A stretch of 46,188 nt of DNA. Origin: an uncultured Bacilli bacterium (GTDB lineage: Bacteria; Bacillota_I; Bacilli_A; RFN20; CAG-826). The stretch spans positions 1 through 46,188 of the forward strand of contig CALVLC010000012.1 in NCBI GenBank assembly GCA_944336335.1, given 5' to 3'. The notes beneath the pieces were generated by a model. That model was given only the letters and a program-made list of their open reading frames with translations, had not been told where the DNA came from and did not search any database. Every line of letters starts with the position of its first letter. Position 1 is the stretch's first letter. This document shows positions 24,486-29,339 of this stretch, in pieces. Position numbers and translations under genes: made by a program.

Positions 24486-24503
24486 CTACTAATTATCTAC
24501 TAA
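24486..24503 (+). repeat. Two CTACTAA direct repeats, 11 bases apart
   Basis: CTACTAA at 24486-24492 and 24497-24503. They lie just upstream of the -35 of the phosphofructokinase promoter and 36 bases upstream of the nrdA promoter. The same unit recurs before nrdB and between udk and degV. Confidence 0.65.
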
Positions 24504-27110: not shown

Positions 27111-27162
27111 CTACTAATTTTGTACTAAAACATCTACTAAATAACTACTAATTATCTACTAA
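27111..27162 (+). repeat. Five CTACTAA-type repeats in 11-12 base steps before nrdB
   Basis: CTACTAA at 27111, 27134, 27145 and 27156, plus the variant GTACTAA at 27122. The steps are 11, 12, 11 and 11 bases, so all copies face the same side of the helix. The block fills nearly the whole gap from the nrdA stop to the nrdB ribosome site. It is probably a protein-binding operator controlling nrdB. Confidence 0.75.
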
Positions 27163-27181: not shown

Positions 27182-28243
27182 ATGACAATTAAATTAGATG
27201 AATTAATGCCACATAAACAATTATTCAATCCAAACGGCGATATTGAAATAAATAAGAGAAGAATGATTGGTGGAAACACTACCAACTTAAACGATTTTAA
27301 TAACATGAAATATCCATGGGTTAGTAATCGGTATCGACAAGCAATGAATAACTTTTGGATCCCAGAAGAAATTAATATGAATCAAGATGTTAAAGATTAT
27401 CGTAAAGCTTTAACACCTGCTGAAAAAAGAGCATATGATAAAATACTTTCTTTTTTAATTTTTCTTGATTCACTTCAAACAGCAAACTTACCAAATATTG
27501 GCGAATACATTACAGCAAATGAAGTGAACATGTGTTTAAACATTCAATGTTATCAAGAAACAATTCATTCACAAGCTTATTCTTATATGCTTGATACAAT
27601 TTGTTCACCATTTGAAAGAAACGAAATTTTATACCAATGGAAAAACGACGCTCATTTATTAAAAAGAAATGAATTTATCGGTAATGCTTATAATTCTTTC
27701 TTAGAAGATAAAAGACCATTTAATTTCTTAAAAGTATTAATTGCTAACTATATTCTTGAAGGTATTTATTTCTATAGTGGTTTTATGTTCTTTTATAATC
27801 TTGCTAGAAATAACAAAATGAGTGGTTCAGTACAAAATATCAGATACATAAATAGAGATGAAAATACTCATTTATGGTTATTTAGATCAATTATTCTTGA
27901 ATTAAGAAAAGAAGAACCTGAATTATTCACTAAAGAAAACGAGGAAGTTTTAAAAGGAATGCTTCTTGAAGGTTGTAAGCAAGAAATTGAGTGGGGAATG
28001 TATATTATTGGTAATGATATTCCTGGTTTAAACGAACAAATGGTTAAAGATTATATTAAATATTTAGGTAATTTAAGAAGTACATCAATTGGACTTGGCA
28101 AATTATTTGAAGGATATGATAGAGAACCTGAAAGTATGAGCTGGGTTTCAAAATATAGCGATGCAAATATGATTAAAACTGATTTTTTTGAAGCAAGAAA
28201 TACAGCATATGCAAAATCTAGCGTCATTAAAGATGATTTATGA
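27182..28243 (+). CDS. nrdB: Ribonucleoside-diphosphate reductase, beta subunit (diiron-tyrosyl)
   Basis: 353 residues. The diiron ligands are all visible: LDSLQ (Asp84 in E. coli numbering), QETIHSQAY (Glu115, His118 and the radical Tyr122), ILEGIYFYSGF (Glu204) and RDENTH (Glu238, His241). The intact tyrosine argues for a normal Fe or Mn tyrosyl radical enzyme, not one of the tyrosine-less types. nrdI and nrdH are absent nearby, which fits class Ia rather than Ib. GAAAGGA precedes the ATG. It ends in TGA. Confidence 0.95.
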   Translation: MTIKLDELMPHKQLFNPNGDIEINKRRMIGGNTTNLNDFNNMKYPWVSNRYRQAMNNFWIPEEINMNQDVKDYRKALTPAEKRAYDKILSFLIFLDSLQTANLPNIGEYITANEVNMCLNIQCYQETIHSQAYSYMLDTICSPFERNEILYQWKNDAHLLKRNEFIGNAYNSFLEDKRPFNFLKVLIANYILEGIYFYSGFMFFYNLARNNKMSGSVQNIRYINRDENTHLWLFRSIILELRKEEPELFTKENEEVLKGMLLEGCKQEIEWGMYIIGNDIPGLNEQMVKDYIKYLGNLRSTSIGLGKLFEGYDREPESMSWVSKYSDANMIKTDFFEARNTAYAKSSVIKDDL

Positions 28244-28335
28244 TACAAAAAGTTTATAAATTTTTGTGAAAGCTTTTGTTGCATATTATTCGATAAAATA
28301 CGTAATTTGTTGTTTTTTAGTAGCAAACTAGTAAA

Positions 28336-28525
28336 TTTTAGGTCTTGTCAAAACCTAAAAAATGTTTTATAAATTAGGTACATAGAGATAGTTATCTCGA
28401 ATTAAAGAACAGCAAAGGAATAATAAGAGGCTGTAAATCAAGAGAATAGGATTCAGTGCCTATTAACGTCATCAATGTTTGGATGATAGAAGTTAAGAGT
28501 TGTGTAAAGAAACAACTCTTTTCTT
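28336..28525 (+). ncRNA. Candidate structured RNA of unknown class (or nrdB 3' UTR)
   Basis: A series of stems: TTTTAGGT/ACCTAAAA (28336-28360); TAGGTAC/GTGCCTA (28375-28381 with 28456-28462, one G-U pair), which would enclose GAGATA/TATCTC (28385-28398) and ACAGC/GCTGT (28409-28434) as a three-way junction; TCATC/GATGA (28469-28486); then a terminator. AATAGG/CCTATT (28445-28464) is an alternative to the long closing stem, so two folds compete. I could not match it to RNase P, tmRNA, SRP RNA, T-box or a riboswitch I know. It may be a 6S-like small RNA or the processed end of the nrdB mRNA. Confidence 0.45.
28495..28525 (+). terminator. Terminator of nrdB or of the candidate RNA
   Basis: AAGAGTTGT (28495-28503) pairs with ACAACTCTT (28512-28520) over an eight-base loop; the next bases are TTCTT. 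Confidence 0.75.
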
Positions 28526-28529
28526 ATAG

Positions 28530-28557
28530 AAAAAAAGCAAAGCATTTTGCTTTGCTT
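28530..28557 (-). terminator. Terminator of udk
   Basis: On the minus strand AAGCAAAGCA pairs with TGCTTTGCTT over a three-base loop (28557-28535), and a T-run follows (28536-28530). It lies just downstream of the udk stop codon. Confidence 0.85.
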
Positions 28558-28578
28558 ATGATGTTTAAGTTAATTTAC

Positions 28579-29202
28579 TTATTTTATTTTGCCACTCATG
28601 ACATCTTTTAAAACGGCACAAATAACTTCGATAGATTTATTATCGTATCCATCATTGTTAACGATTAAATCAGCATAATATTGAGATGGTCCAATAATTT
28701 CTTCATACATTGGTTGCACAGTAGAGAAGTATTGATTAACGATTGAATCTTGAGATCTTCCTCTTTCATGAATATCTCTATCCATTCTTCTTAATAGTCT
28801 TCTTTCTCGACTAGCATTAATAAATATTTTTAAATCACCTAATTCACGTACTTCTTTATTAACTAAAGCCATAATACCTTCAACAATAATTAATTTATTT
28901 GGAACAACGTGAACAGTTTTTTCAGCACGATTATGTTCAACATAATCGTAAGTTGGTTTATCAACTGGTTTATCTTCTTTAAGCATTGAAAGTTGTTGTT
29001 TCATTAATTTCCAGTCAAATGCTTTAGGATGATCAAAGTTTTGTTTCTTTCTTTCTTCGAGACTGAGACTAGAAAGGTCTTTATAATAATCGTCGATAGA
29101 GAAGTGGGTGATATTATCTGTCCCCAGTTTATTGATTACTTGGTCAATTACATAAGTTTTGCCACTAGCGGATCCGCCGCCTACTAATACTATTTTTGCC
29201 AT
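28579..29202 (-). CDS. udk: Uridine/cytidine kinase
   Basis: 207 residues, the family's usual size. P-loop GGGSASGKT, then SIDDYYKDLSSL, NFDHPKAFDW and PTYDYVEHNR (nucleoside site), VEGIMAL (Walker B) and RRLLRRMDRDIHERGR (lid). It phosphorylates uridine and cytidine to UMP and CMP, salvaging nucleosides. This fits the upstream nuclease/nucleotidase operon, which would supply nucleosides. GGGC lies about 10 bases before the start. The region upstream, shared with the divergent degV gene, carries the TTAGTAG repeat block. Confidence 0.93.
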   Translation of the reverse strand: MAKIVLVGGGSASGKTYVIDQVINKLGTDNITHFSIDDYYKDLSSLSLEERKKQNFDHPKAFDWKLMKQQLSMLKEDKPVDKPTYDYVEHNRAEKTVHVVPNKLIIVEGIMALVNKEVRELGDLKIFINASRERRLLRRMDRDIHERGRSQDSIVNQYFSTVQPMYEEIIGPSQYYADLIVNNDGYDNKSIEVICAVLKDVMSGKIK

Positions 29203-29288: not shown

Positions 29289-29339
29289 TTAGTAGATTAT
29301 TAGTAGTTTATTAGTTGATTTCTTGTATATTTTAAGTAG
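29289..29339. repeat. TTAGTAG repeats in 11-base phase between udk and degV
   Basis: TTAGTAG at 29289 and 29300, TTAGTTG at 29311 and TAAGTAG at 29333, i.e. steps of 11, 11 and 22. TTAGTAG is the complement of the CTACTAA unit before nrdA and nrdB. The block lies upstream of both divergent genes. Confidence 0.65.

Follow-up and report, generated by a model that had tools for sequence, protein, structure and literature searches.

The gap between nrdB and the convergent uridine kinase gene udk, on contig 12 of a low-GC Bacilli genome (G000; 2.0 Mb, 80% complete), very likely contains an independent small-RNA gene with a defined structure, as judged from sequence comparison. The predicted transcript is about 145 nt long, with its own promoter and an intrinsic terminator, and on balance we read it as a trans-acting sRNA that would be antisense to mRNAs. 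The window referred to throughout is the whole analysed stretch of 46,188 nucleotides, and all coordinates are positions in it. An earlier note had proposed a structured regulatory RNA of about 190 bases here. The RNA itself holds up, with five hairpins and covariation, but it is smaller, beginning near 28380. A regulatory role is probable for a structured, non-coding RNA with a terminator.

DNA searches recovered four homologues, all from the same genus and about 76–86% identical to the window copy (G137, 85%; G161, 78%; G026, 76%; G190, 77%). A fifth, G098, is too diverged for DNA search and was found by scanning udk loci with model R1 (34.8 bits). The features of the locus, with their state in the six copies, are as follows.

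27182–28243, + strand: nrdB (NCBIfam NF007184), the neighbour upstream, outside the RNA
28345–28350, + strand: −35 element TTGTCA of the predicted promoter; TTG and a 17 nt spacer to the −10 element in 6/6 homologues
28368–28373, + strand: −10 element TATAAA; TATAAA in 4/6, TAAAAA in G190, TATATT in G098
28375–28381, + strand: TAGGTAC, 5′ arm of a previously proposed three-way junction; stem imperfect in 4/4 relatives with both sides, no covariation
28380–28525, + strand: predicted small RNA, about 145 nt; start placed at 28378–28382, end at the terminator; conserved block with covarying hairpins
28385–28398, + strand: H1, GAGAT/ATCTC; 5/5 pairs invariant in 6/6
28409–28434, + strand: H2, ACAGC/GCTGT; two-sided change at 4/5 pairs (hand alignment)
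28445–28464, + strand: H3, AATAGG/CCTATT; kept in 5/6, as AATAAG/CTTATT in G190
28468–28487, + strand: H4, GTCATC/GATGAT; paired in 5/5, with T-A to C-G in G190
28495–28525, + strand: H5 and U-tract, intrinsic terminator; two-sided changes at 3/9 pairs
28579–29202, − strand: udk, uridine kinase (NCBIfam NF004018/TIGR00235), the convergent neighbour, outside the RNA

A sigma-A-like promoter, TTG-N20-TAWAWW, occurs with identical spacing in all six homologues (28345–28373 in the window) and lies 11 or 13 bases from H1 in each of them. The flanks further upstream are largely diverged in the alignment. Given that the promoter spacing is shared by all six, the transcript very probably starts near 28380 and not at 28336. 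The promoter and the start are consensus-based, and a scan that used a stricter −10 rule detected no promoter. The bases at 28374–28381, between the −10 box and the predicted start (TTAAGTAC in the relatives), are unusually well kept, and a plain promoter does not explain the conservation of TTAAGTAC. A hairpin at 28336–28361 was rejected as a functional part, as it overlaps the −35 box and its arms are mismatched in G137 by eye.

The terminator scan placed a terminator-like hairpin at 28495–28520, followed by a T-run, in agreement with the final terminator described earlier; its 8-nt loop (GTAAAGAA) is identical in five of the six copies. The reported lack of a reading frame was likewise borne out. 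No frame longer than 23 codons runs into the end of the RNA in the window, and among frames starting with ATG, GTG or TTG none is alike across all six homologues. A small peptide was rejected, because the reading frames are not common to the homologues.

The segment 28365–28530 folds with −37.1 kcal/mol (z = −3.65), which 0 of 200 shuffles equalled, and 28330–28530 has a z of −3.20 against shuffles. Much of the folding excess comes from the terminator. Without it, 28380–28494 shows a weak excess (z = −1.59) that 15 of 200 shuffles equalled, so folding of the single sequence would not by itself prove an RNA. The earlier note had counted a lack of compensatory changes in relatives against the RNA, and such changes were found. 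In a model-made alignment, with H2 and H3 in part misregistered, two-sided changes occur at 11 of 28 pairs, and pairing holds in 93.1% of the 159 cells. Neither value was reached by any of 500 shuffles, and a slid-register control gave at most 4 two-sided pairs and at most 48.4% paired. A hand structural alignment, from which G098 is counted at H1 and H2 alone because of its rebuilt 3′ half, has standard pairs at 31 of 31 positions wherever the hairpin exists, with 9 of the 31 changing on both sides. Both alignments are structure-guided and so lean towards structure, and the sample is six sequences with G161 and G026 near-copies.

The hairpins differ in how they vary. In H2, ACAGC/GCTGT is replaced in relatives by GCAGT/ACTGC, GTAGC/GCTAC or GGATC/GATCC. 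H3 covaries once and is kept in all five sequences aligned there. H1 never varies, so its pairing is without covariation support; together with its flanks (ATAGAGAT..ATCTCG) it is the best-kept part in all six homologues. G-T pairs at H4 and H5 on the + strand would be mismatches if read on the other strand, and those in H4 place the RNA on the + strand.

The RNA appears to be restricted to this genus. Model R2, a covariance model that includes G098, gave 10 matches at E ≤ 2 in 26 genus genomes, six of them strong (E ≤ 4.2e-11). Its seventh match (E 0.008) was rejected, as it lies over the end of a 435-codon frame and the terminator of that frame. In a class-wide sample, R2 matched 3 of 395 genomes, all from the same genus. 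With model R1, 12 matches at E ≤ 0.1 were obtained in 224 family genomes. Five of these are real, and the other seven (E 0.004–0.07) were judged chance from their sequences and, for five of them, alignments. The same five and a chance match in G006 made up the six R1 matches at E ≤ 0.01 in 279 order genomes. This order search missed G098, so fast filters may have discarded distant members. The H1 pattern TAGAGATN{2,10}ATCTCGAAYTAA was found in 5 of the 224 family genomes, each time at the RNA, and its reversed control in none; G137 deviates from the H1-and-flanks pattern in the last bases. A search of genome contigs returned seven stretches, four of which are the known loci, the other three being non-homologous by the model. 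In viral contigs, one exact pattern and the 3′ pattern had no match and the 5′ pattern had one, with a best model score of 4.9 bits; the plasmids and phages searched gave no match to the RNA. In a udk tree of 25 of the 26 genus genomes (G182 was left out, its udk being split), the five close carriers group together (support 98/98), and G098 is separate from them, with a long branch. On this tree the carrier label has to change twice, although there may have been a single change.

The gene context is not constant. The gene after the RNA is the convergent udk in four loci (window, G137, G161 and G026), and the G190 contig stops about 93 bases past the RNA, with udk on another contig. In G098, which has no nrdB match, an HTH_3 gene lies between the RNA and udk. 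About 1.4 kb, including an opposite-strand DUF6088 gene, separates nrdB from the RNA in G026. Upstream of the RNA in that genome and on the opposite strand, a small frame (L104:536-640) ending in MESVLIILLLILFLRKLKEKDDHNNGRR is short, hydrophobic and then charged; by eye we take it to resemble type I toxin peptides. G172 and G070 have an nrdB–udk gap of about 11–13 bases, with no room for the RNA. In G182 the gap is about 780 bases, with no R1 match, no Rfam match and no 40-codon frame. A long hairpin is present there (L102, G182:C8:300-1250, at about 100–760), and the overall fold is no better than shuffles (z = −0.59).

All sequences named in the earlier note are present at their positions, including a TTAGTAG at 28317–28323, which by eye has no copy at the equivalent place in the aligned relatives. 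The window contains 14 copies of this motif (6.45 expected), a count reached by 0 of 100 shuffles. Direct repeats of it with 11-bp spacing (24486–24503, 27111–27162 and 29289–29306) lie beside nrdA, in the nrdA–nrdB gap, and upstream of udk/degV. The window has four pairs with this spacing, whereas the best of the other shuffled motifs among 60 has 0. G026 has arrays with the same spacing near nrdB and udk (L119:10662 and L119:7209), and they also occur at one further place in G000 (L128:48). The repeats look like candidate binding sites for a regulator of nucleotide metabolism genes.

The earlier note had also proposed a two-state switch, in which a three-way junction closed by TAGGTAC/GTGCCTA competes with the stem AATAGG/CCTATT. 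The junction did not survive comparison. Its closing stem is equalled by 388 of 500 shuffles, is imperfect in each of the four relatives that have both sides (pairs kept out of seven: G137, 6; G161, 5; G026, 5; G190, 6) and is missing in G098. Nearly all of the TAGGTAC arm precedes the predicted start, and we judge it to be mostly promoter discriminator and not RNA. AATAGG/CCTATT, in contrast, is conserved, as H3, though not as a competitor in a switch. In the window, predictions that start at 28336 or 28374 give TAGGTAC/GTGCCTA (pair probabilities 0.82–1.00), and those that start at 28378, 28380 or 28382 give AATAGG/CCTATT (0.82–0.98); the competition between the stems thus depends on the 5′ end chosen. 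An attractive thermodynamic alternative fold of a single sequence can vanish once relatives and the promoter are considered.

This dependence on the 5′ end bears on a reading of the locus as a cis-acting part of nrdB (its 3′ UTR or terminator), in which read-through RNA would form the three-way junction, RNA made from the promoter would form H3, and the two would have different fates. Besides the flip of the predicted fold, the terminator scan of the nrdB–RNA gap in the window, which gave no terminator-like site, speaks for it. We nevertheless consider the cis reading improbable, given the imperfect junction stem with no covariation and the presence of the RNA without nrdB (G098) or displaced behind another gene (G026). 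A more specific form, in which one sequence yields two RNAs, at least in the window species, and so couples nrdB transcription to sRNA activity, is in our estimate very unlikely; if it were true, the fold would depend on which promoter is used, and this would link the two. Control of a downstream gene, as by a riboswitch or attenuator, would fit the multi-hairpin anatomy ending in a terminator, and in G098 the HTH_3 regulator gene does come next in the same orientation, at about 120 nt from the terminator. This too is a highly improbable reading, since udk is convergent in the window and in the three relatives named above (G190 is unreadable), and the predicted folds show no anti-terminator pairing that competes with H5. 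As it is kept in genomes with nrdB missing or displaced, and most loci have no same-strand gene after it, the RNA appears to be neither an nrdB 3′ UTR element nor a riboswitch. Its restriction to six of 26 genus genomes could suggest a neutral relic, or palindromes that cluster by chance in the gap between convergent genes. Against this stand the compensatory changes, the common promoter spacing and an identity of 76–86% where the flanks have diverged, and we find such an origin hard to credit.

What the RNA would act on separates the two main readings. In the preferred one, the sigma-A-type promoter (28345–28373) would start a transcript near 28380, which would fold into the string H1–H4 and end at the intrinsic terminator H5 (28495–28525). 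The constant part, the 5′ hairpin and its flanks (AUAGAGAU...AUCUCGAAYUAAA), would pair with target mRNAs, as would, in the main clade, the terminator loop (GUAAAGAA); the remaining hairpins, in which the sequence changes and the pairing is kept, would serve as spacers and stabilisers. In the window species nrdB read-through transcripts probably stop at this terminator too, because the terminator scan gave no such site between nrdB and the RNA. Alternatively, H1 and its invariant flanks may be a site for an RNA-binding protein or RNA polymerase, which the RNA titrates or guides. The H1 arms are constant while the loop varies, G098 shares mainly H1 and the linker after it, and a duplex scan of 38 translation starts in the window brought out no mRNA target, all of which favour protein binding. 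In that scan the best z was −2.8, which does not convince as the best of 38 tests, nrdA had −2.03, and nrdB, udk and degV were at background, so that antisense action has no target yet. A protein-binding RNA is, however, without a known partner gene, and a string of short hairpins differs from the 6S rod. We regard it as a possible but rather doubtful explanation, and take antisense action on mRNAs to be likelier. A tracrRNA or natural single-guide RNA of a type II CRISPR system is the least probable reading, and we rejected it. H1 and the A-rich linker resemble, by eye, a repeat/anti-repeat followed by a nexus, and Cas9 is present in G000 and G137. No Cas9 match was found, however, in G161, G026, G190 or G098 (listed completeness 92–98%), and the CRISPR repeats of G000 and G137 are by eye unlike the RNA. 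The Cas9 loci themselves (G000:C18 and G137:C13; L116 and L117) carry the CRISPR repeat GTTTGGGAGCAGTGTTATTTATAAGACTTCCAAAAC or its complement.

We know of no RNA work on the uncultured Bacilli lineage of the window. The gene would add to it a small RNA that is supported by covariation and has no Rfam match, with a concrete start, end and fold that can be tested in metatranscriptomes.

At the gathering score, no Rfam family lies over the RNA in a scan of the whole window, and a permissive scan of 28240–28580 gave matches far below the cut-offs (E ≥ 0.49). The 6S family suggested for checking earlier (RF00013) is among those without a match: none at the gathering score in the window, none up to E = 10 in 28240–28580 and none in the 80% complete genome. 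No earlier description was found in Rfam or by word searches in the main text of PMC8040213 and PMC2864571.

The predicted RNA shares with 6S RNA a similar length and its non-coding nature. 6S RNA is a long rod with paired ends and a central bubble, whereas the RNA here is predicted to fold as separate hairpins with unpaired 5′ and 3′ ends; on this shape and the Rfam results, 6S RNA was rejected. A tracrRNA has a repeat/anti-repeat followed by a nexus, hairpins and a terminator. The likeness to the type II form lies, by eye, in a 5′ hairpin, an A-rich linker, more hairpins and a terminator, and the difference in a Cas9 that is unmatched in four of the six carriers and repeats that are unrelated by eye. 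The intergenic trans-acting sRNAs of Firmicutes are a general class with a sigma-A promoter and an intrinsic terminator. Although the RNA here has no Rfam family match, it is like them in its size, promoter, terminator and 5′ hairpin, in having no reading frame, and in its position between convergent genes.
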